Source: a virus. Taken from it: a stretch of DNA of 64,000 nt. This document shows, piece by piece, positions 5,678 through 45,827 of the stretch. The first letter of the stretch is position 1, and the number at the start of each line of letters is the position of its first letter. Under the pieces are notes generated by a model that searched no databases, was not told where the DNA came from, and worked only from the letters and a program-made list of their open reading frames with translations. The stretch lies in the IMG/VR virus record IMGVR_UViG_3300050120_000361, positions 1 to 64,000 of that record. One strand, written 5' to 3'. The position numbers and the translations under genes are program-made.

Positions 5678-5705
5678 ATATCCCATAAACGTCCGTATTA
5701 TAGGG
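5678..5705 (-). promoter_or_regulatory. Putative phage promoter
   Basis: On the minus strand this reads CCCTATAA, 13 nt, GGGATAT, then GTACAATATAA and the start of 5255-5650 about 28 nt on. It matches the motif seen upstream of more than a dozen genes. Confidence 0.65.
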
Positions 5706-5737: not shown

Positions 5738-6023
5738 GCGCACCGGTGCAACGGGCCTTTTTGACGGCACGCCTTGGCAAATGGCTTGGAATATCCCGAA
5801 AGTACCGTATTATTGCGTATTTTCCGGTGCGCCGGGTTGTTGCTCCCCATGGCTCGGGTGCGTCGAATTGAATGCCCGTAATGTATGGGTTTCAGTGGGA
5901 TATGCCATGTTTTGGGAACCTTTCAATTGTGCGCACCGGATATGGAGGCCATTCGGCCGTTATCCTTGGCAAATGCCTTTGCGGTTTTGTGGGAACCCCT
6001 TATTGTGGCATTGTCCGGTGCGC
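5738..6023. repeat. CCGGTGCGC array, composite element A
   Basis: Five copies of a 9-mer lie at fixed places: GCGCACCGG at 5738, CCGGTGCGC at 5824, a weak copy at 5855, GCGCACCGG at 5931 and CCGGTGCGC at 6015. Copies 1-2 and 4-5 form inverted pairs 86 and 84 bp apart. TTGGCAAAT lies near the middle of each pair. The element fills the gap between the terminator at 6046-6063 and the promoter at 5678-5705. The interior is not otherwise similar to elements B and C. Confidence 0.75.
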
Positions 6024-6045
6024 ATTGGCGGAACGGGCAATAGAA

Positions 6046-6063
6046 AAGTCCCAATTGGGACTT
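6046..6063 (-). terminator. Terminator after 6075-6227
   Basis: AAGTCCC, AATT and GGGACTT form an 18-bp palindrome followed on the minus strand by TTTTC, 12 nt after the stop of the 50-aa gene. Confidence 0.65.
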
Positions 6064-6074
6064 GAATGCGAATG

Positions 6075-6227
6075 CTATTTAACTGTCAAATGGAACACCG
6101 CCCTGCAAACCTCCTTGATATGGAACATGTCATGCTCGTGCAAATCAATGGACAAATAGCCGAATGTTAGGGAAACGATGATTTCGAAAAGGGATTTAGT
6201 TGTTTGTTTCTTGATTAGTTTCTGCAT
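6075..6227 (-). CDS. Small protein, 50 aa
   Basis: A 50-residue reading frame beginning MQKLIKKQTTKSLFEI. It has a basic N-terminus and a short hydrophobic centre (EIIVSLTFGYLSID) that is borderline for a membrane helix, then a His-containing tail. Its own promoter lies at 6277-6303 and its terminator at 6046-6063. That complete transcription unit is the main reason to believe it is real. Function unknown. Confidence 0.6.
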   Translation of the reverse strand: MQKLIKKQTTKSLFEIIVSLTFGYLSIDLHEHDMFHIKEVCRAVFHLTVK

Positions 6228-6276
6228 GACGTTTGGGTTTTAGTTTATGATAAATGATTGTTTTCTTATATCATTT

Positions 6277-6303
6277 ATATCCTGAAACTCCAAACATTAT
6301 AAG
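6277..6303 (-). promoter_or_regulatory. Putative phage promoter for 6075-6227
   Basis: The minus strand reads CTTATAAT, then AGGATATAAAT, about 50 nt before the ATG at 6227. The -10-like GATATAAAT is good; the distal box is a variant. Confidence 0.55.
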
Positions 6304-6354
6304 ATAATCGAGCATTATCCGCAATATATGCCCAATACCTTATTGCACAACTGC

Positions 6355-6448
6355 GCGCACCGGATACGGGACCAAAACAGGGGCTGTCCTTGACTAATGC
6401 CTTGCCAAACAGTTTGGCCTGCATTCTGACGATAAGTTTCCGGTGCGC
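6355..6448. repeat. CCGGTGCGC single inverted pair
   Basis: GCGCACCGG at 6355-6363 and CCGGTGCGC at 6440-6448 are inverted and 85 bp apart, with TTGACTAATGCC and TTGCCAAAC between. The unit lies between the terminator at 6470-6501 and the promoter at 6277-6303. It is the half-size version of the composite elements. Confidence 0.7.
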
Positions 6449-6469
6449 ATGCGGCCTATGGGCAAAATA

Positions 6470-6501
6470 AAAGGGTCACCGAACTCGCTTCGGGACCCTT
6501 T
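6470..6501 (-). terminator. Terminator after 6546-6926
   Basis: AAAGGGTC and GACCCTTT with an inner CCGAA/TTCGG stem form a near-perfect hairpin. The minus strand continues TATTTTGCC, giving a U-rich tail. Confidence 0.75.
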
Positions 6502-6545
6502 CAACCTAAACCTTATCACAATCTGCGGCGGTTGCCGCATTCTCT

Positions 6546-6926
6546 TTATGCTACGACCAATTCGGCTTTTGCGGCTTTGGCTTTCGCCTTTGAAGCGCGG
6601 CTTGCCTTGTTGCGGGCCAAACGTGCTTTCTTTTCTTCAGGAGTTTCAACTTTTGCAACTGTTTCGATAACTTCAACCTTGTGGGTTACGGGAACGATTT
6701 TCGCAAGCATTGCGTCCTTAACGCTGTTGGTTGCGGCTTCGATGAACAGGCCCTTGAAAACAGGCAGTTCGATAACGTCTTCTGAACCAGCTTCGATACG
6801 GTCAGCGATTTCGAATGCAACGTCTTTTTTGATGCTCAAACGTTTTGCGGTTGCAACTACGAAGTTTAATTTTGCGCCGAATGATTTAGTTGAATACAAT
6901 GCGGCTGATTTGAATGATGCTTTCAT
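6546..6926 (-). CDS. Basic Ala/Lys-rich protein, possibly nucleoid-associated
   Basis: A 126-residue protein beginning MKASFKSAALYSTK. Residues 1-95 could form a small alpha/beta domain. Residues about 95-126 are a low-complexity Lys/Ala/Arg tail (KASRASKAKAKAAKAE) like those of histone-like DNA-binding proteins. It has its own promoter (6980-7007) and strong terminator (6470-6501), and its codon choice (GCG/GCT, AAC/GAA) looks tuned for high expression. DNA packaging or binding to the nearby repeat arrays is an inference from composition and position. Confidence 0.75.
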   Translation of the reverse strand: MKASFKSAALYSTKSFGAKLNFVVATAKRLSIKKDVAFEIADRIEAGSEDVIELPVFKGLFIEAATNSVKDAMLAKIVPVTHKVEVIETVAKVETPEEKKARLARNKASRASKAKAKAAKAELVVA

Positions 6927-6979
6927 GATTTTAATTTTTTAAGTTTGTTTAAATAATTTGTTTGTTTCTTATGATAATT

Positions 6980-7007
6980 ATATCCTGAAAACCCAAACAA
7001 TATAGGG
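6980..7007 (-). promoter_or_regulatory. Putative phage promoter for 6546-6926
   Basis: The minus strand reads CCCTATAT, a spacer, AGGATATAATT and then ATAAGAAACAAAC before the ATG at 6926. The GATATAAT box is one of the best in the window. Confidence 0.7.
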
Positions 7008-7041
7008 AATACGGGAAAATAGTTCATATAGTTATGCTTAC

Positions 7042-7329
7042 GCGCACCGGTACATCATGAATTATTGGTTGTATGCAGGGCATTTGGCAACCAATCCCGA
7101 ATACATGGCCTTTTCTGTTCCCAATACCGGTGCGTACGGTTGCGTACCAATAAGGTACTGGTGCGCGCGGTTGTATCGATTATTCAATGGGAATATCGGG
7201 CATTGCATGGCAAACGGAAACCAATTGCGTTCCATGCGCACCAGACAGTCATTGAATATCTGCCATTGACAAGGCATTATGCCTGATGGTTCCAATACGG
7301 TCCCAATACGGTCAACAGTGCCGGTGCGC
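7042..7329. repeat. CCGGTGCGC array, composite element B
   Basis: The sites are GCGCACCGG 7042, CCGGTGCGT 7127, CTGGTGCGC 7158, GCGCACCAG 7236 and CCGGTGCGC 7321. Offsets are 0, 85, 116, 194 and 279, matching elements A and C to within 2 bp. Three of the five copies carry one mismatch. The element fills the space between the terminator at 7351-7372 and the promoter at 6980-7007. Short open frames on both strands here have no start signals and are not called. Confidence 0.75.
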
Positions 7330-7350
7330 GCGAACGGCCGTATACAGAAA

Positions 7351-7372
7351 AAGCCCGACTTTCGTCGGGCTT
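7351..7372 (-). terminator. Strong terminator after 7404-8165
   Basis: AAGCCCGAC, TTTC and GTCGGGCTT form a perfect 9-bp stem with a 4-nt loop, followed by TTTTTC on the minus strand. Confidence 0.85.
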
Positions 7373-7403
7373 AATCTTCATTAGTCAGTTAATTGTTTCT
7401 TTA

Positions 7404-8165
7404 TTACAACGCCTCGATTGCAACGGTTTGCTTAACCGAAAGAGGGATAAGGTATGCCTTCAATGAAGCGTTGCCGTCATTGGCATCCTTGAATTTGATT
7501 TTGGCCTCTTCGAAAGCCGCAACGGGAACGTCGTATATTTCGCCGTCGATTTGCAGCGGTTTTGTAACGACTTTGGTAGATAGCGGTTTGCGGGGTTTGT
7601 AGTAGGTTTTGGCGTAGCGTATACGGTCAATACCTGTTTGCATTTCGGCGATGATGTCAACCTCTTTGGCAAGTTCAACTTGCATGTAGACATCGGCAGC
7701 GTAGCCCTTAGCAGCGGCCTCGTCGTCAATCATTTTCTTGATTGCTGTACGGGCGGGCTTAACTTCCCACCATGAAGACAACAGCAACAGGAGAGGATTG
7801 ATTGATTGGCCTGCAATCTGAATGGTTGAGATAACCTTCAAACCGTCCAAAATCTTAGGCTCGCGCTCTTTGTCGTATTTGGACGATGCAACGGTCTCGT
7901 TGATATAGTCCAATGGGCTGTGAGCTTCCAACCATTCGCGGTCCGTGAACTGCGGAGTGTTTTCATCAACAACGTGCATTGACAAATTGCCTTGCGCGGC
8001 GTCTTCCAGGTCATTTCCAAGCTCGGGGTCAGCGGCGCCAGCGTTTGGCTGTTCGTTCTGAGCTCCTTCGTTTTGCTCGTTTTGTGCGCCTTCTTTGTTG
8101 GCTGCTACTGATTGGTTTTGTTGTGCTTTAGCGGCTTTTTCAGCGGCTCTGTTTTTGTTTGACAT
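7404..8165 (-). CDS. Abundant-type unknown protein, paralogue of 11584-12150
   Basis: A 253-residue protein. Residues 1-75 are low-complexity, Ala/Gln/Asn/Glu-rich, with a repeated GAQNEQ motif. The rest is a helical domain followed by a C-terminal module with IDGEIYDVPVAAFE. That module and the preceding segment (QVELAK...YYKPRK) align with the 188-aa protein at 11584-12150 (QTELAV...FYARRA, ISGDLYEVSADFL), so the two are probably paralogues. Two promoter motifs upstream and a strong terminator suggest high expression. The role is unknown; a structural or nucleic-acid-coating function is possible. Confidence 0.8.
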   Translation of the reverse strand: MSNKNRAAEKAAKAQQNQSVAANKEGAQNEQNEGAQNEQPNAGAADPELGNDLEDAAQGNLSMHVVDENTPQFTDREWLEAHSPLDYINETVASSKYDKEREPKILDGLKVISTIQIAGQSINPLLLLLSSWWEVKPARTAIKKMIDDEAAAKGYAADVYMQVELAKEVDIIAEMQTGIDRIRYAKTYYKPRKPLSTKVVTKPLQIDGEIYDVPVAAFEEAKIKFKDANDGNASLKAYLIPLSVKQTVAIEAL

Positions 8166-8206
8166 GACTTTAATTTTTGGATTGATTAATTTGTTTCTTA
8201 TTTACT

Positions 8207-8235
8207 GTATCCCAAAAATGATGGAATTATAAGGG
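8207..8235 (-). promoter_or_regulatory. Proximal putative promoter for 7404-8165
   Basis: The minus strand reads CCCTTATAAT, a spacer and GGGATACAGTA, ending about 40 nt before the ATG at 8165. Confidence 0.55.
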
Positions 8236-8299
8236 ATTTGGAAAGTTTTTTCGTTTTGTTTTCGTTTAGATGTTCAAATCCTCATCGCTTATATTATAT

Positions 8300-8326
8300 A
8301 TATCCCAAAAAACGTTATTATATAGG
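8300..8326 (-). promoter_or_regulatory. Distal putative promoter for 7404-8165
   Basis: The minus strand reads CCTATATAA, a spacer, GGGATATATATAATATAAG. Together with 8207-8235 it gives tandem promoters reading away from the array at 8370-8657. Confidence 0.6.
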
Positions 8327-8369
8327 AATATCGGAAACTTTGTGCTAATAGGCAGTTATGGACAGTCGC

Positions 8370-8657
8370 GCGCACCGGTTATTCGGCATATTTTAAGGTT
8401 GTGCAAGGCATTTATCCTCATGGCTTTCCTACACGGCATTCAATAAATAGTGTTCCGGTGCGCTTGGATGTTATAGTCTTTGCGGGCCGGTGCGCCGGGT
8501 TGAGCCTCCAAAACTGAAAAAGCCCCTGTTTCCCAAGCATTTTTGGCATACCGACAGCATCTATGCGCACCGGATATTATCCGATAATCCAGAAACCGTT
8601 GGCATTCATCAGGGCTTTAACAGTATTCGGAGGCTTCCGCAGGATTGTCCGGTGCGC
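8370..8657. repeat. CCGGTGCGC array, composite element C, between divergent promoters
   Basis: All five sites are exact 9-mers: GCGCACCGG 8370, CCGGTGCGC 8455, CCGGTGCGC 8487, GCGCACCGG 8565 and CCGGTGCGC 8649 (offsets 0, 85, 117, 195, 279). It is the best-preserved copy. It lies exactly between the minus-strand promoter at 8300-8326 and the plus-strand promoter at 8671-8702, where transcription diverges. This position suits a shared upstream regulatory region or an origin. Confidence 0.8.
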
Positions 8658-8670
8658 ACAGCACAACAAA

Positions 8671-8702
8671 CCCTATAAGTATTGGCGTCCAACGGATATA
8701 AT
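8671..8702 (+). promoter_or_regulatory. Putative phage promoter, plus strand
   Basis: CCCTATAA, 15 nt, GGATATAAT and then the ATG at 8723. It is the same motif as on the minus strand, reversed together with the direction of the genes. That is strong support that it is a promoter. Confidence 0.7.
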
Positions 8703-8722
8703 TTCTGTTAAAACTTACGAAC

Positions 8723-8947
8723 ATGCAACAGCACACAACCTCAGAACTAATCGACCATTTGGCCCATATCATATATGATTTGGGATGGCCCATAGTAATA
8801 CCAATAATCATACTCGCTCTGGTGCTGATGGCTCTGGTGCGCGTACTGAGATTGATATTCAAAATCCCTATATTAACATGGATTTTCGGATATATAATAT
8901 ACAAGAGAACATCAAACAAAGACAAACAACCAAAATGGAAACAATAA
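8723..8947 (+). CDS. Small membrane protein, 74 aa
   Basis: A 74-residue protein with a polar N-terminus (to about residue 20), one long or two short membrane segments (residues about 23-40 and 46-60, rich in Ile/Leu/Val) and a basic tail (KRTSNKDKQPKWKQ). It is the first gene of the only plus-strand operon. Its end overlaps the start of the next membrane-protein gene by 13 nt. Function unknown. Confidence 0.75.
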   Translation: MQQHTTSELIDHLAHIIYDLGWPIVIPIIILALVLMALVRVLRLIFKIPILTWIFGYIIYKRTSNKDKQPKWKQ

Positions 8948-9180
8948 CCAAAATCGTAGACGGTCTGAAAGGCCAGCCAATCTACATACAAGCAGCAGCA
9001 ATCCTTTTCGCATTAGCGTTGGGACTTTTCATCGGATTGCTGCCAAAAGTGATACTCGTTGACATCATGGGATTGCCGTTCAATCCACCAAAACTGAAAT
9101 TCTTAGGGGCCAACAGAGCCCCTAAAATTTTGCCTGTTCGGAGCGTGCGCACCAGCGCACGCTCCCAGAGCATCGTGTAA
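8935..9180 (+). CDS. Small membrane protein, 81 aa
   Basis: An 81-residue protein beginning METITKIVDGLKG, with one membrane helix at about residues 16-38 and a Pro-rich, basic C-terminal tail. The longer frame starting at 8785 would overlap almost all of the previous gene, so the ATG at 8935 is chosen. The last 25 codons run through two stem-loops (9103-9123 and 9139-9164), so the C-terminus may have been extended secondarily. Confidence 0.65.
   Translation: METITKIVDGLKGQPIYIQAAAILFALALGLFIGLLPKVILVDIMGLPFNPPKLKFLGANRAPKILPVRSVRTSARSQSIV
9103..9123 (+). terminator. Hairpin inside 3' end of 8935-9180
   Basis: TAGGGGC and GCCCCTA pair across 7 nt and are followed by AAAATTTTGCC, a terminator shape, although it lies within the reading frame. 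Confidence 0.5.
9139..9164. repeat. Perfect 10-bp inverted repeat overlapping a CCGGTGCGC-type site
   Basis: GGAGCGTGCG, CACCAG and CGCACGCTCC form a perfect hairpin. Its centre contains GCGCACCAG at 9147, the left end of the unit at 9147-9238. Confidence 0.6.
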
Positions 9181-9238
9181 TTAAATTGCCTTGGCAAACG
9201 CCCGCAAATACGGCAATAATTGGAAATGCCCGGTGCGC
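9147..9238. repeat. CCGGTGCGC single inverted pair
   Basis: GCGCACCAG at 9147 and CCGGTGCGC at 9230 are inverted and 83 bp apart, with CCTTGGCAAACGCC between. The pair ends 15 bp before the plus-strand promoter at 9254-9281, so here too the array is directly upstream of a promoter. Confidence 0.65.
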
Positions 9239-9253
9239 GTGAATGTCTTAAAT

Positions 9254-9281
9254 CCCTATCTTTTCGGCTTGCATGGGATAT
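9254..9281 (+). promoter_or_regulatory. Putative phage promoter for 9307 operon
   Basis: CCCTATC, 14 nt, GGGATATAGG, followed by AACTAAGAAACATACAATAAC and the ATG at 9307. Confidence 0.65.
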
Positions 9282-11583: not shown

Positions 11584-12150
11584 TTACAATACCTCTACGC
11601 CTTCGTTCTTTTTGGTGTTCGGGTCTGCTAACAATGCAGCGCGTTTCGAAGCTGCGTCCATACCTGACAGTGATGCCAAGAAGTCTGCCGATACTTCGTA
11701 AAGGTCGCCGCTGATGCTTACCTGGATCAGTTTTGTTTTCGCGGTTGTTGCGCGACGGGCGTAGAATGATTTTACGTTGTTCAGCGTTGAAGCCGCTTTC
11801 TGCAAGCCATTGATAACTGCCAATTCTGTTTGGAAGTCGCCGTCGATGTAATTTTTGAACTCTTCCGAACCGCCGAAGCTTTCGATAACCGAAGCCTTAA
11901 CCGGAGCTGAAGCGTCTTTGTCATGCCATACCGGCACCAGGCTCAATACCTTCGCGAAGTTAGCGCTAACGCCGAACTCGTTGATTTTGGCAACTGCAGC
12001 TGTAAGGCCGGCAATTTCTTCAGGGGTTAATTCTTTCGGCTCTTTTGAGCTTTTCTTGGTTTCAGTACCTTCAGCCGGTGCTGTTGAAGTTTCCAAATCG
12101 GAAACGTTTAATTCCTGGTCTTCAGCAGGAGATTGTGCGTCGTTTGACAT
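11584..12150 (-). CDS. Abundant-type unknown protein, paralogue of 7404-8165
   Basis: A 188-residue protein. Residues 1-45 are disordered, acidic and Ser/Thr/Glu-rich. A helical domain follows (TPEEIAGLTAAVAKINEFG), then a C-terminal module with ISGDLYEVSADFL. It aligns with the larger protein at 7404-8165 over its last 90 residues. It is downstream of the 104-aa gene at 12210-12524, which shares the C-terminal module, and is closed by a strong terminator. Evenly chosen codons suggest high expression. Function unknown. Confidence 0.8.
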   Translation of the reverse strand: MSNDAQSPAEDQELNVSDLETSTAPAEGTETKKSSKEPKELTPEEIAGLTAAVAKINEFGVSANFAKVLSLVPVWHDKDASAPVKASVIESFGGSEEFKNYIDGDFQTELAVINGLQKAASTLNNVKSFYARRATTAKTKLIQVSISGDLYEVSADFLASLSGMDAASKRAALLADPNTKKNEGVEVL

Positions 12151-12209: not shown

Positions 12210-12524
12210 CTATATCTCAAGGACTGGTGGGGCCGAGGCTATTATCTCATCGATGAGCTTTTGCTTGCTCTTCTCCGACTTCATCTCCTTCAGCCTCTCG
12301 TACATCACCAGGCTTATCGTGTAGTGTCTGCCCTTGAGGGTGACGGCTATGCTTCCTGTTGGCGTGCGTGGCTTCTTAGCCTTTTCCTCTTTGACTCGAG
12401 CAGTCTGTTCGGCAAGTTTTTGTTCGAGCTCGTTGAACTGGTCTATGTCGAGGTTGTTCCAATCAACCTGTGAAAAGTCGATTATTTCGGTTTCCTTTTG
12501 ACCTTGCGCATTTACGTTGCTCAT
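12210..12524 (-). CDS. Unknown protein sharing the C-terminal module
   Basis: A 104-residue protein with a helical, acidic then basic N-terminal half (FNELEQKLAEQTARVKEEKAKK) and a C-terminal module VTLKGRHYTISLVMYERL. That module matches the IxGxxYxV(S/P) pattern of 7404-8165 and 11584-12150. A textbook Shine-Dalgarno (AAGGAGG, 7 nt before ATG) precedes the start, unlike most genes here. The promoter is at 12577-12606. Function unknown. Confidence 0.75.
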   Translation of the reverse strand: MSNVNAQGQKETEIIDFSQVDWNNLDIDQFNELEQKLAEQTARVKEEKAKKPRTPTGSIAVTLKGRHYTISLVMYERLKEMKSEKSKQKLIDEIIASAPPVLEI

Positions 12525-15953: not shown

Positions 15954-17906
15954 TCAGAGCTTTAGGAATGTCACGCGCTTGGTTATGAAGTCCTGCGTCT
16001 TGAATATGAGCTTCTCCAATGAGGAGTCGAGCAGGTATGTTACAGACCAGTCCTCTACGAAGCGGTTGGTACGGCCAATGGCCTGAACCAGCTTCTCAAG
16101 CGTCTGCCTCTCGTACCAGAAAGCGAACCTGTCCATCTTCTTTTTTGTGTATTCCGTCAGGCCTGAGTAAGGCGCCTTGACCACGATGTTGAAGCGCCCC
16201 ATGTCACCAGAAAGGTCGAGGCCCTCGTACAGGGACGGCCCTACGATGACGTACGGCGGAGAAGACAGGTCCTTCATCCTGCGCACAGCCTCCTCCTTCT
16301 CGGCGGAGTTCGTGTAGAACAGGTACCTGTGCGGGTGGGTTACGGCGCCGGCCCGGTACACGGCCTCCTTGAGCTTTTCAGCTATCTGGAATGTTGACGT
16401 GTGTATGATGCCCTTCTCCTTTGGGTGCCTCTTCTCAGCAACCTTAATGGCGTCCAGGAGGACTGAGTGTATGTTCTCATTGAACTTAGAGTAGTTGAGG
16501 TAGCCTGACTTGGTCAGGTATATCGGCGACTTGTCGAAGTTGAAGTTGGACGCGAGCCTGAAGCCGGAGTACTCCTCCTTCTTCATGCCCATCAGCAGAG
16601 CGAACTCGTCCACGTTTCCGAGCGTGGCGCTCATGAACACCGCGCGGTCAACCTTTGTCAGGAAGTGCTTCCTGCACATCTCGGCCTCGTTCATGTCGTA
16701 CACGGTGTGCCTGAAAGTCTTGTACGAGCCGCCCTCGATTATGCTGTTCGTCACGAACTCGCTTTCTATGAAAAGGTCGTCAGGCCTAAGCGCGAGCTCG
16801 TCCAGGTACTTGATGTCAGGCATGCCCTTCATCTCCTCCACGATCTTCTTCACCTCCTTGTCGAACATCTGCTTGAAGGTCTCGTTCTTGGCCTTCATCT
16901 CCGTGTTCAGCGCTGCGAGCCACTTGACCAGGAGCAGGTAGTTGTCAACGTGCTCGCGTATGTCGTCCAGCGTGGGCCTGTCCATACTGAACAGCTTGAA
17001 GGCGGCCATCAGGGGCTCCCTGCCCTCCTTGAGCATCGCGCCGGCCGCGTTCTTGAAGTTTATCTCGACCTGCTGGAATATCTTGTATATCCTGTTCATG
17101 CCCCACTGCGTGAGGGCCAGGTTGAAGTGGCTGAGCACTATGTCAGGAACCAGGTGGGCCTCATCGCATATCGTTAGCGGCCTGATGCCGAAGTACGGGT
17201 TCTGCTTCATCTTCATTATGTTGATGAAGTACGCGTAGTTAAGCACGGCGCAGCCGGCCTCCGAGGTCTGGAACCTCTTCTGTATGTACGGGCACGTGTC
17301 GTAGCAGCCGAGCGCCATTATGTCTGGGCGCTTCATTCCCAGACAGTACCTGTCAGGGTACTTCACTGGAACCTTCTCCTCCTCGGTCAGGAGCGTGCAA
17401 AGGTAGTTGGACGTGCCCTTAAGCATTGAGAACCAGCGGTGCATGTCGAACTTGTCGAAGTCCTGCTCGAGCTGTTCCTGCAGGGCCTTGGAACTCGTCA
17501 GGAAGTAGGAGTGCCCGCTGAAGTTCCGCAGGTATGCTCCCTCGCCGTCTATGGGGTCAACGCCCTCCATCACCCAGTCAAGGTAGGCCGTGCAGTAGTG
17601 TATCATGTCGCCTATTATCGACTTGCCCGTGCCGGTGGGTGCCGACAGCAGAACGTAAGGCTTCTTCTCAATGTAGAGCGACTTCAGCACGCTGTAGAGA
17701 GTTATTATGAGGGTCTCATCCTTCCTGAAGAGCGGGTTGAAGTTGAGGCATGTACCCAATGCGACCCTGATATGGCTGTCCATTTCAGCCGCGTTCGGGA
17801 ACAGCACCTGTTCGTGCTGGCTTGGCTCCTCCTCAGGAGCTGGGATTATAGCTGTCTCTCCAAGGGGGTCTTCATCGTCCCAGTCAAGGTCTCCGTATTC
17901 AATCAT
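15954..17906 (-). CDS. XPD/DinG-type superfamily 2 DNA helicase
   Basis: A 650-residue helicase. Residues 89-96 are the Walker A loop (APTGTGKS), DEAH is at 248-251, a motif with SATL is at about 432 and QAIGRTNR, the arginine-finger motif VI, is near 615. Between Walker A and DEAH, cysteines at 170 (in NYLC), 188, 201 and 205 match the iron-sulfur-cluster domain of XPD/DinG helicases. It would unwind DNA 5' to 3' during repair or replication. The acidic N-terminal 40 residues are extra. It overlaps 17903-18367 by ATGA. Confidence 0.85.
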   Translation of the reverse strand: MIEYGDLDWDDEDPLGETAIIPAPEEEPSQHEQVLFPNAAEMDSHIRVALGTCLNFNPLFRKDETLIITLYSVLKSLYIEKKPYVLLSAPTGTGKSIIGDMIHYCTAYLDWVMEGVDPIDGEGAYLRNFSGHSYFLTSSKALQEQLEQDFDKFDMHRWFSMLKGTSNYLCTLLTEEEKVPVKYPDRYCLGMKRPDIMALGCYDTCPYIQKRFQTSEAGCAVLNYAYFINIMKMKQNPYFGIRPLTICDEAHLVPDIVLSHFNLALTQWGMNRIYKIFQQVEINFKNAAGAMLKEGREPLMAAFKLFSMDRPTLDDIREHVDNYLLLVKWLAALNTEMKAKNETFKQMFDKEVKKIVEEMKGMPDIKYLDELALRPDDLFIESEFVTNSIIEGGSYKTFRHTVYDMNEAEMCRKHFLTKVDRAVFMSATLGNVDEFALLMGMKKEEYSGFRLASNFNFDKSPIYLTKSGYLNYSKFNENIHSVLLDAIKVAEKRHPKEKGIIHTSTFQIAEKLKEAVYRAGAVTHPHRYLFYTNSAEKEEAVRRMKDLSSPPYVIVGPSLYEGLDLSGDMGRFNIVVKAPYSGLTEYTKKKMDRFAFWYERQTLEKLVQAIGRTNRFVEDWSVTYLLDSSLEKLIFKTQDFITKRVTFLKL

Positions 17907-41738: not shown

Positions 41739-44700
41739 TCAGTTTATGTCTATGTACATGGAACCCTTTTCTGAGGGGATTACTTGAAACGCATGAGTCT
41801 CGAACATCTGCTCGAGGTTGTGGTCTATTACAAAGAGGTTCTTGGACTCAAAGCGGTTCAGAAGCGTTATGAACATCTCCTGATAATTCACTATATTCTC
41901 CTTTTTAGAGAGTTCTTTGCCGCTGTTGAGCTGACCCGAGAGCTCGTCTATGAATATGCATGAAACACTGTTCTTGACATTCAGGGTGGATATGGCGTAT
42001 ATTAGCGCAAGTCCCTGGAATGCTGTTTCCATGCCTGATACGAGCTGAACCGGCCTGAATACGGCGTGGCCGTCTTTCATCTCCACCATGTAAAGCTCGC
42101 CGCTCTCGTCCCAGAACAGTTTGAAGCTGAGCCCCTCAAGCAGCAGGTTGAGCGTGTTGTTCAAAAAGCTCCTGTAGTAGTTGAACACTATGTCCTTAAA
42201 GTCCCGCTTGATGAGCTTCTCGTATATCGCAAAAACCATGGACTTGCGCTGCCACTCCACGTACTCTCTGATGAGCTTCTCATTGGACTCTATCTTGAGT
42301 TCGTGCCTTTGGAGCGCGAGGCTGTGCTGCGCCCGTTGCGTGTTCATGACCGACATTGACTCGTTTTCGTCTCGCTCATTCCTTTCTTGCTCGTCAAGCC
42401 CGGCCACCGCCTCATCCCACATAGGCTCCTTAAGCCTCAGGTTTTCAAGAGTGGATGCCTCCAAAGCGTGTGTCTGCTTCAGCTGGTCAATGCTACGGTT
42501 GTGCTCATCGACAGTGAGGTTGTGCCGGCGCACGGCGTCCAAGGCTTCGTTGTGCGTCTTTAGCCTGTCGCCGTATGACTTCAAATCCTTTGAGTACTTT
42601 TCCGTGGCTTCGGTTGCCGCCCTGACTATTTTCTCAATGCCCTGGTACAGCAGGGCCATCTTGTCTGATGAGTCCTTTGCGCCTTTGGTCCACATATCCA
42701 ATTTGGCCTTGGCACCGGCCTGCTCATCGAACACCAGCAGTGTGGCGTCCTTTCGCAGGGTCACCTCCCGAAGCGCGGCGAGCTTGGTAAGCCTTGCGGT
42801 AATCACGTCCAATTCGATGTACAGGTTCTCATCGGCGCTGTAGTCCTTCTTCTGCTCCTTAGCGGCTTCGGCCGTTGTTTTGAGCCTGTTCCACTTGTCC
42901 CTTGCAGTCACGGTCGCGACAGCCAATGGGCGTATCGCGTCATTGTAGGACGCGTGCTCAGCAAGCACTGTATTCCAGTCGCTTTCAGCCGAGGCCACGC
43001 TTGCAAGTATTCCGTAGGTGTCGACATGCGTCTTCGCCGCTGCGGCGAGGCTTTGCTGCTTTTCCAGTTCAGGAGTGATTTGCGTCAACTCTATCACTAT
43101 CGCCTCATTGTCGTCCTTTAGCCGCTGCTTGAGAACCTCCCAATGCCCGGCATCCCCTGATATTGGTTTATTGCAGGTGGGGCATATGCCCGACTCGAGC
43201 TGATTTTTGTTGGAAGACAGCCTGTCGCTGAGCGCTTTCTGCCTGTCCTTGATTTCCTGGACCTTCTCATTGAATGTCTTTTCCTTGGCCTGCAGGACTT
43301 CGTGCGTTTCCCTCACCGCATCGAGGTAAGCGCCACCTGCGGTGTCAAGCTCTATTTTTGCGGTTGCCGCTGCATTGGCGTAGTCCTGTTCGATGCGCCA
43401 GTACTCCTTTGTAACCTCCTCCCAGCCTCCGTCAATTTCCGCTTGTGTCTGCTTCTCGAGGATGTCCCACATGGCGGCTATGTCATCAGCGTATGCTTCA
43501 TTTACCGTCTTCAGCGCGCCTATTTCATCAGCAAGTATTTCAATCTCTTCCTTATCAGCTTCTTTGGTGTCAGGCTCAATTGGCTCGGTTTCAGTGAATA
43601 TCGGCTCTTCCCGCTTTTCCCTGCTTTCGAATGAGTCCACGGCCGCCTTGGCGTTATCCACCTTGACCTGCTGCTCCTTAATGAGCGTTGGCACGTTGCC
43701 CAATTCGAGCTTTTTCTGGTGGCCCTCGGCTATTGCCCGCCTTATGTGATTGAGCCTGTTTTCTGTGAATGCCTTGGAGTCGTCGAGCAGCTCAATTTTG
43801 TTCTGGGCGGCGTTCCTGTCGGCAATCGCCATTATTATCTCCTCCTTGAGCTGGGTCATGTTCACCTTTGGCTTAACGAGGTCGTAGTATGACTTGACCG
43901 ACGCGAGGTTGCCTTCAAGCACCTGCAGGTAGTCTACGCCTATGTAGTTCAGGACCATTTGGGTCAGCTCCGCGGGCGGCATGTTCAGCATCGACAGTAT
44001 CTTCGCCTGGTTCAGTATCATTATGGTATTCGGAACCTCACCGAACCATCTGTCCAATAGCTGCTGGGCCTCGTCGCCTATCTTCTCCACTGGCTCCGCG
44101 CCCTCCTTGTGAACCTGAAGCTTCAGGTTCCGCGTCACGCCGCTCACGTACTGCTTCCAATTCAGGGAGCGCTTCATCTCGTCTGTGGTGTTCTGCTTCC
44201 ACGCGCGCTGCGCCCAGCGTATCGCGTGCACCTTTGTGCCGTTTGCGCGGAATATGAGCCTTACCATTATGGTGTCAATCTCCGGAAGCTTGTCGTTGAA
44301 CAGGTGCAGTGAGTTCTGAACCTTCTTGGCCTTCGGCATGCCCTCCATTATCTCGTCCTTCAGCACCCACCGCAGCATATTGTACATGGTGGTCTTGCCT
44401 ATTCCATTGGTGCCGGTTATGCGTGTCAGTCCTGGTATGTTCAGCTTTATCTTGTTTTTGCCGAGGGCCATGAAGCAGTTGCACTCGATGCTCTCGAGCT
44501 CGTTCACGTAGTTTGAGGTCTTGGTCAATGAGTTCGAGAGTTGCTCAGAGAACAATTGCCTTATCTCGGCCAGTATCTCATTGACGTCCTCCTCCTCAAC
44601 GAACTCCTTCTCAATCGTTTTCTTGTGTCCTTCGAGCACCTTGACGAACAGTGCGTGCAGCTTGGCCTCATCGAGTACCATCTCATCCATGGTTTCTTCA

Positions 44701-45827
44701 GGCTCTTCACCCTCTCCTTCCGTAACGGCCTCAGTAGGTTGGACTTCGCTTTGGTTCATTACGAACTTGTCGTACTGGCAGTTAACTGAAACGGTTCCCA
44801 TCCGCTGCGAGCCGAGCTCGTGCGTCACGCGTATCAGTTCGAGCTCGTGCTTTGAGTAGGTGCTCGAGAGCTTGAACTTTATGAACGTGTTGCACGTTCC
44901 CCAAACGCTGTCGAGCCTGAGCACCGCGAGAACCTGCTGCAGCCAGTTCTCAGAAACCGATGAGGTAGTCATGTCGAACGTCACGTAGCTTATCAGGTTT
45001 GTAAGCGGCTCATCCCTTACGGTCCATGAGCCGTTCTCGATGTCTATTATCTTGACTACCTTTTGGTCGCCTACCGCCAGTCCGGGCTTGTTGCGGACCT
45101 TGGCGAATGTGCCCTCGGAGTGGTCGCGCTGTATAGGCGAGCCTGGATATATGAAGGTTTTGGACTTGTCGATGCTCTGGACCGTCCAGTTCACGTGAAT
45201 GTCCCCTGCGAGGGTAAGCGTGGAGAGGAAGTCCTCAACGGACGCGAGCCTCTCGTACCTGTCCTTCTTTACCGGAAGCTTTGTGGCGTCAACGTACTCC
45301 CGCAGAATGTCGTGGTACACGCATATGTTGAAGGTGTAGGGGTCTATGCCTTCCGCCTTGATGTTAGCCCCGTTTGACGGCCCGTCCTCCAAAGAGTAGG
45401 AAATCCATCCGAGCCCTTCAACCCGTGACCTGTAGTACCGCTGCTCCTTCAGGTAGGTCACCTTCTTGCTGAGCTCGGGCTCAAGCTTGTCTATGAACGA
45501 CTTGAACGTGTCAACGGCGTTGTGCCCCTTCTCGGCCTCAAGCGCCTTCCGCATGTCGTGAAGGTCGTGGTTGCCGTTCATTACGCAAATCTCAACCAGG
45601 GTGGGTATCGCAAGGCATTCTGACAGGTGGTTGTATATCGCCTTCTTCTCAGCGTCATTCGAGGCCGCATACTCCGTAAGGTCGCCGGCCAGCAGGTATA
45701 CCTCAACGCCCTCGCGAACGATAATGTCCCGTATCTCCGCAAGCACAGAGGCGTACGGCTTGGTCAGGTCCCGCTCGCGCAGCTTGACCTGGATGTCTGC
45801 TGTGTGCAGTATTCTTGTTTTCAGCAT
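41739..45827 (-). CDS. SbcD-SbcC (Mre11-Rad50) fusion nuclease-ATPase
   Basis: A 1362-residue protein joining two repair subunits. Residues 1-360 are a Mre11/SbcD phosphoesterase: motif I DIQ at 11-13 (usual His replaced by Gln), GD at 48-49, GNHD at 85-88, His172 and GDIH at 208-211. After an acidic linker (about 360-440), residues 440-1362 are a Rad50/SbcC ATPase: Walker A GTNGIGKT (472-479), two coiled-coil halves around a CPTC zinc hook at about 880, a signature LVSGMETAF near 1264, Walker B CIFIDE near 1291 and an H-loop IDHN near 1336. It processes DNA ends. Confidence 0.9.
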   Translation of the reverse strand: MLKTRILHTADIQVKLRERDLTKPYASVLAEIRDIIVREGVEVYLLAGDLTEYAASNDAEKKAIYNHLSECLAIPTLVEICVMNGNHDLHDMRKALEAEKGHNAVDTFKSFIDKLEPELSKKVTYLKEQRYYRSRVEGLGWISYSLEDGPSNGANIKAEGIDPYTFNICVYHDILREYVDATKLPVKKDRYERLASVEDFLSTLTLAGDIHVNWTVQSIDKSKTFIYPGSPIQRDHSEGTFAKVRNKPGLAVGDQKVVKIIDIENGSWTVRDEPLTNLISYVTFDMTTSSVSENWLQQVLAVLRLDSVWGTCNTFIKFKLSSTYSKHELELIRVTHELGSQRMGTVSVNCQYDKFVMNQSEVQPTEAVTEGEGEEPEETMDEMVLDEAKLHALFVKVLEGHKKTIEKEFVEEEDVNEILAEIRQLFSEQLSNSLTKTSNYVNELESIECNCFMALGKNKIKLNIPGLTRITGTNGIGKTTMYNMLRWVLKDEIMEGMPKAKKVQNSLHLFNDKLPEIDTIMVRLIFRANGTKVHAIRWAQRAWKQNTTDEMKRSLNWKQYVSGVTRNLKLQVHKEGAEPVEKIGDEAQQLLDRWFGEVPNTIMILNQAKILSMLNMPPAELTQMVLNYIGVDYLQVLEGNLASVKSYYDLVKPKVNMTQLKEEIIMAIADRNAAQNKIELLDDSKAFTENRLNHIRRAIAEGHQKKLELGNVPTLIKEQQVKVDNAKAAVDSFESREKREEPIFTETEPIEPDTKEADKEEIEILADEIGALKTVNEAYADDIAAMWDILEKQTQAEIDGGWEEVTKEYWRIEQDYANAAATAKIELDTAGGAYLDAVRETHEVLQAKEKTFNEKVQEIKDRQKALSDRLSSNKNQLESGICPTCNKPISGDAGHWEVLKQRLKDDNEAIVIELTQITPELEKQQSLAAAAKTHVDTYGILASVASAESDWNTVLAEHASYNDAIRPLAVATVTARDKWNRLKTTAEAAKEQKKDYSADENLYIELDVITARLTKLAALREVTLRKDATLLVFDEQAGAKAKLDMWTKGAKDSSDKMALLYQGIEKIVRAATEATEKYSKDLKSYGDRLKTHNEALDAVRRHNLTVDEHNRSIDQLKQTHALEASTLENLRLKEPMWDEAVAGLDEQERNERDENESMSVMNTQRAQHSLALQRHELKIESNEKLIREYVEWQRKSMVFAIYEKLIKRDFKDIVFNYYRSFLNNTLNLLLEGLSFKLFWDESGELYMVEMKDGHAVFRPVQLVSGMETAFQGLALIYAISTLNVKNSVSCIFIDELSGQLNSGKELSKKENIVNYQEMFITLLNRFESKNLFVIDHNLEQMFETHAFQVIPSEKGSMYIDIN

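Follow-up and report, generated by a model that had tools for sequence, protein, structure and literature searches.

What recognises a series of short inverted repeats that are held at a nearly constant distance while the DNA between them is free to vary? The question arises from a window of 64,000 nucleotides (positions 1 to 64,000 of IMG/VR record IMGVR_UViG_3300050120_000361), which is part of a 208.5-kb virus record (G000). A preliminary description of its positions 5738-9238 listed eight inverted pairs of a 9-mer and offered two options, either a protein complex over about eight helical turns or an RNA with a 9-bp closing stem. Few systems are known in which sequence-specific multi-site complexes obey a strict geometry, and most of these are plasmids and temperate phages. 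Our literature search, which covered part of the literature, found no earlier description of the present element, and in jumbo phages it may mark a so far unstudied locus with a control or landmark function.

Eight arm pairs in one island

We confirmed eight inverted arm pairs between 5738 and 9238, with start-to-start distances of 86, 84, 85, 85, 85, 85, 84 and 83 bp. Thirteen of the 16 arms are exact copies, and the arms at 7127 (CCGGTGCGT) and at 7236 and 9147 (both GCGCACCAG) are each one base off. The window holds 14 exact 9-mers against 0.65 expected. Inward pairs at 80-90 bp with at most one mismatch per arm occurred eight times, compared with a mean of 0.05 and a maximum of 1 in 60 dinucleotide shuffles. 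The same count found no outward or direct arm pairs at this spacing in the window, and when arms were placed at random in the zone at most three of the eight paired up. Across the whole 208.5-kb genome every exact arm copy is confined to 5738-9238, and no comparable cluster was found outside it. The interiors of the window units have a median pairwise identity of 36%, apart from a significant central motif. The preliminary description was thus right about the pairs, their spacing of 83-86 bp and the interiors, which it called unalike apart from a central block; it had overlooked extra outer arms, a pairing of units at 193-195 bp, and the fact that the central block is off-centre and polar.

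The geometry is conserved in distant relatives

The helicase encoded at 15954-17906 is closest to those of PAU, PTm1, pT24 and MA9V, jumbo phages of Bacteroidetes hosts or similar. A search with this helicase gave a first relative, the 68-kb contig IMGVR_UViG_3300028549_004336 (G001, G+C 27%), whose counterpart of gene d (7404-8165, minus strand, a 253-aa protein) is 41% identical. Gene d as a single query retrieved no relatives; an alignment of the two sequences retrieved three further contigs, 3300002026_000017 (G002, L043), 3300000553_000014 (G003, L045) and 3300028734_000021 (G004, L046). Gene d, the search anchor, is common to all five element-bearing phages, each of which has 7-10 units around it. 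In total 42 units were collected from five genomes of 23-52% G+C, with a motif derived from the first genomes, by which diverged units may be missed. In each genome the arms are restricted to one island.

Neither gene d nor an arm cluster was present in six further large phage records, one uncultured and five cultured; the more distant cultured relatives PAU, PTm1, pT24 and MA9V-1/2 are without both. A nucleotide search of phages gave no match, and gene d was not found in GTDB species genomes. Scanning viral contigs for exact arms gave 13 matches, all single and G+C-rich, which we attribute to chance.

The spacing was 84 bp in 14 units, 85 in 14, 86 in six, 87 in five, 88 in two and 83 in one. 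The arm is GCGCACCGG in the phage of 52% G+C. Three relatives have ACGCACCAG or ACGTACCAG with TAAA after it, and the remaining one has ACACACCAG; that is, the arm sequence shifts together within each genome while the spacing stays at 83-88 bp. Neither of the departures that the preliminary description had said to look for, free drift of the spacing and loss of arms, was found within the gene-d clade. The geometry is conserved across large phages for which no cultured member was found, and with 7-10 natural copies per genome both spacing and polarity can be read directly. Since the arms have changed genome-wide and the geometry has stayed, the co-evolution of a DNA-binding protein with all of its sites becomes testable.

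Median identity of the interiors is 36-46% across units. They share a central dyad of the CAAG...CTTG type (consensus ttttCaAGacAtATgtCtTG), which scored 406 in a constrained motif search against 146-166 in shuffled interiors; other motif searches agree on its position for the clear cases. In most units 42±1 bp separate the dyad centre from one arm edge, a few units deviating by up to 3 bp, and ~52 bp separate it from the opposite edge; being off-centre, the dyad makes the unit polar. Many units have arms in the same orientation 27-32 bp outside them, and some gaps hold two tandem units. A variant unit at L043 9044-9155 has a spacing of 103 bp. Readings as integron attC sites or transposon ends were dropped, as the geometry is too rigid and the central dyad is conserved.

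Lambda-type attP also combines arm-type and core-type sites at fixed spacing. The units could be attP-type recombination sites, a core dyad with arm sites for a two-domain recombinase that swaps or duplicates the small island genes. The arm-core-arm plan with outer direct arms does resemble the sites of heterobivalent integrases, near-identical duplicated units occur in the islands (in L045, in L043 and at G001 44124/44240), and the small island genes differ from phage to phage. Ordinary homologous recombination can yield such duplications, however, and recombination at such sites requires matching cores, whereas the interiors here, centres included, vary among the units of a single genome. 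Unlike lambda-type attP, the units are present in many copies; their orientation is not uniform, and the 208.5-kb genome has no match to Phage_integrase (PF00589). We consider recombination quite unlikely.

Left and right arm bases vary independently

The two options of the preliminary description, protein and RNA, differ in what they predict for the arms, and it had proposed compensatory changes as the test. Within each genome the bases of left and right arms at variable positions are independent, with no excess of matched states, and 24 of 378 arm positions cannot pair. These results reject a stem formed by base pairing, whether in RNA or as a cruciform. In favour of a small RNA with the 9-bp arms as its closing stem, these arms form inverted repeats and most units close when folded as single strands; such an RNA is nevertheless a highly improbable reading, given that single, unpaired outer arms carry the same sequence, that Rfam gave no match at the gathering threshold, and that the units sit beyond terminators, outside the inferred transcripts. 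Arm independence, together with the unpaired outer arms of the same sequence, leads us to infer that the arms are recognised as double-stranded DNA by a protein, the pairing alternative having been tested and failed. The protein option is further supported by the retention of arms and spacing around a free interior in four distant relatives, and by the fixed 31-bp offsets of single unpaired arms.

Most units beside a promoter-like pair have their short side toward it

A promoter-like pair, CCTATA-N15-GGATAT, almost always 27 bp in length, recurs across the unit from the gene-end side. In the window, unit 1 (5738-5832; arms 5738-5746 and 5824-5832, central dyad 5774-5787) has its short side to the left, toward a leftward pair at 5678-5704, 34 bp away, and a degenerate outer arm with two mismatches lies by it at 5855-5863. 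Its distal partner, at 193 bp, is unit 2 (5931-6023; arms 5931-5939 and 6015-6023, dyad 5966-5979). Unit 3 (6355-6448; arms 6355-6363 and 6440-6448, dyad 6390-6403) faces a leftward pair at 6277-6303 (CTTATA-N15-GGATAT, 52 bp away). Unit 4 (7042-7135; arms 7042-7050 and 7127-7135, dyad 7077-7090) faces the leftward pair at 6980-7006, 36 bp away, and has an outer arm at 7158-7166, 31 bp from its right arm, and a distal partner at 194 bp, unit 5 (7236-7329; arms 7236-7244 and 7321-7329, dyad 7271-7284). On the other side of gene d, unit 6 (8370-8463; arms 8370-8378 and 8455-8463, dyad 8405-8418) faces the leftward pair at 8300-8326, 44 bp away, and has an outer arm at 8487-8495, 32 bp from its right arm. 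Its distal partner at 195 bp, unit 7 (8565-8657; arms 8565-8573 and 8649-8657, a weak dyad at about 8599-8612), is also 15 bp from a rightward promoter at 8672-8699. Units 1 to 7, the outer arms of units 4 and 6, and the leftward pairs are all assigned to the minus strand. Unit 8 (9147-9238, plus strand; arms 9147-9155 and 9230-9238, dyad 9191-9204) is reversed in polarity and faces a rightward pair at 9255-9281 (CCTATC-N15-GGATAT, plus strand, 17 bp away).

The short side points toward the promoter in 16 of 19 promoter-unit pairs (about p=0.002, sign test by hand), a statistic that treats promoters as independent where some are duplicates (L043), and for which polarity is called from a near-palindromic motif with a log-likelihood ratio below 3 for 8565, 9147, G001 43096, L045 9555 and L046 9286. 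The three promoter-facing units of wrong polarity are 8565, G001 43214 and L043 9469. The nearest arm, with outer arms counted, lies 33-38 bp upstream of the CCTATA box in about 13 of the 19. Promoters and terminators here are sequence calls rather than mapped transcripts; a sigma-70 promoter scan gave nothing useful in the AT-rich relatives.

Given the constant spacing, the third site at a set distance and the polarity toward promoters, we favour, with moderate confidence, the reading that the units are looped or wrapped regulatory nucleoprotein complexes controlling the promoters of the island around gene d. Each would be a platform on which a DNA-binding protein or complex docks at three sites: two asymmetric arm sites of about 9-13 bp, which point inward 83-88 bp apart (about eight helical turns), and a central dyad whose distances to the two outer edges are 42 and ~52 bp, or about four and about five turns. 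A protein bound at the centre would bend or wrap the DNA so that the arms meet, giving a closed polar complex of ~94 bp. The extra arms 27-32 bp outside would extend this complex, and many gaps would carry two. Such complexes would most likely regulate transcription of the small island of early-arm genes, by activation or by repression through looping, because the short side usually points to the promoter, whose CCTATA box in most cases has its nearest arm 33-38 bp upstream.

Looped operators and upstream enhancers, such as those of lac, gal, AraC and phage repressors, likewise have two sites upstream of a promoter that are separated by a whole number of turns of free sequence. The units share with them the paired sites, the whole-turn spacing (fixed at 83-88 bp in 42 units, around free sequence) and the position upstream of a promoter, relative to which their place and orientation are mostly constant, with units in convergent gaps as exceptions. 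They differ from lac, gal and AraC loops in a third, off-centre dyad at fixed distance, in being repeated across an island, and in occurring also where no promoter is seen. Indeed, groups of units lie between two terminators with no visible promoter in the convergent gaps L046 8022-8305, G001 43949-44333 and L045 8477-8569, and for this reason promoter control is not the whole story. The three units of wrong polarity also speak against it, and so does the lack of units at promoters of this class in other parts of the genomes.

The gene-end side of the units allows another explanation. In most gene-end gaps the stop codon is followed by a terminator-like hairpin (some of these read by eye), and about 13-27 bp beyond it comes the first arm; in the window such hairpins are found on the minus strand at 6046-6063, separating unit 2 from the gene that ends at 6075, and at 7351-7372, separating unit 5 from the gene d end. 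The complexes could thus be roadblocks or insulators, reinforcing the terminators and keeping every small transcription unit apart in a separate loop. Each inner transcription unit of the window is flanked by units on both sides, and convergent gaps are covered as well, as this explanation would have it. It does not predict the polarity relative to promoters or the distance of 33-38 bp, and compact intergenic DNA alone would put units near terminators; we regard it as unlikely.

Two details of unit 8 were also noted. Its left arm is inside a perfect 11-bp hairpin, GGAGCGTGCGC-ACCA-GCGCACGCTCC (window 9136-9165), and the reading frame 8936-9180 passes through a terminator into the unit. At L046 8325-8453 a promoter-like site is followed ~90 bases on by a terminator, with no clear gene; this is possibly a tiny RNA or peptide gene in the island.

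The island lies at the junction of two genome arms

In all five phages the order of orthologues puts the island where two converging arms meet, one of structural genes and one of replication genes, close to the peak of cumulative GC skew. The contig ends of the 208.5-kb record fall within this junction, a sign that its genome may be circularly permuted. The junction position is not accounted for by simple promoter control. It is what might be seen if the island, of which there is one per genome, were a platform of genome architecture, a centromere-like, replication-terminus or packaging-initiation locus where many complexes on one spot pair, anchor or process phage DNA and adjacency to promoters is secondary. 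Convergent gaps filled with units as well as promoter gaps agree with such a platform.

Plasmid partition sites offer a precedent. P1 parS has ParB A-boxes and B-boxes around an IHF bend, with a total size below 100 bp. The units may follow a similar asymmetric plan: they have inverted arms around an off-centre dyad, and a bend at the centre would bring the sites together; they are unlike it in numbering 7-10 per phage, in having a central dyad instead of an IHF site and rigid four- and five-turn offsets, and in adjoining promoters and terminators. The inverted repeats of P1 parS are of two kinds and lie asymmetrically around the bend, and pSM19035 parS sites overlap promoters (PMC5016525). 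In pSM19035 parS1-3 and R1 parC, centromere sites also serve as operators, and there, as here, a single locus holds more than one site that overlaps or flanks resident-gene promoters (PMC5016525), although those sites are short direct or inverted iterons in tandem, in contrast to the closed 94-bp units with a free interior described here.

Against an architectural platform, polarity and arm distance follow the promoters, and partition is not a known need of lytic phages. Moreover, neither ParB_N (PF02195) nor HU/IHF (PF00216) had a match in the five records, four of which are fragments, making absences weak outside the window's own genome; a bending protein could be encoded by the host. We hold the platform to be a possible but doubtful explanation, kept in view because a wider role in genome architecture is supported by the units in convergent gaps and by the position at the junction. 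Regulation of the island promoters is still the reading that we prefer. A combination of the two can be proposed tentatively, in which the polar three-site complex would be a previously undescribed class in a Bacteroidetes-type jumbo phage lineage, which would regulate genes and also mark the arm junction as a landmark of the genome (a terminus, or a site of anchoring or packaging), and which would have been kept through a halving of G+C.

Island proteins and other genes

Pfam and PHROGs searches with the island proteins, gene d included, gave no match, and the predicted fold of gene d (mean pLDDT 70) had no significant structural match. Gene d shares a C-terminal domain of ~50 aa with a conserved 188-aa early-arm protein (11584-12150) and, by eye, with a 104-aa protein (12210-12524). 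A lysine-rich island protein at L046 8676-9143 contains two copies of this domain.

Outside the island, one 1362-aa reading frame of the window (41739-45827) has matches to a metallophosphoesterase family as well as to an SbcC-like one, and may be a fusion of SbcD and SbcC. At G000 173942-178757 (L023) DNA polymerase is encoded in two separate pieces, of 510 and 423 aa, that flank another gene, and orthologues of both pieces and of the intervening gene are in the same order in G001 and G002. An HNH endonuclease gene lies between structural genes at G000 196885-197829 (L024), and its homologue is found elsewhere in G002.
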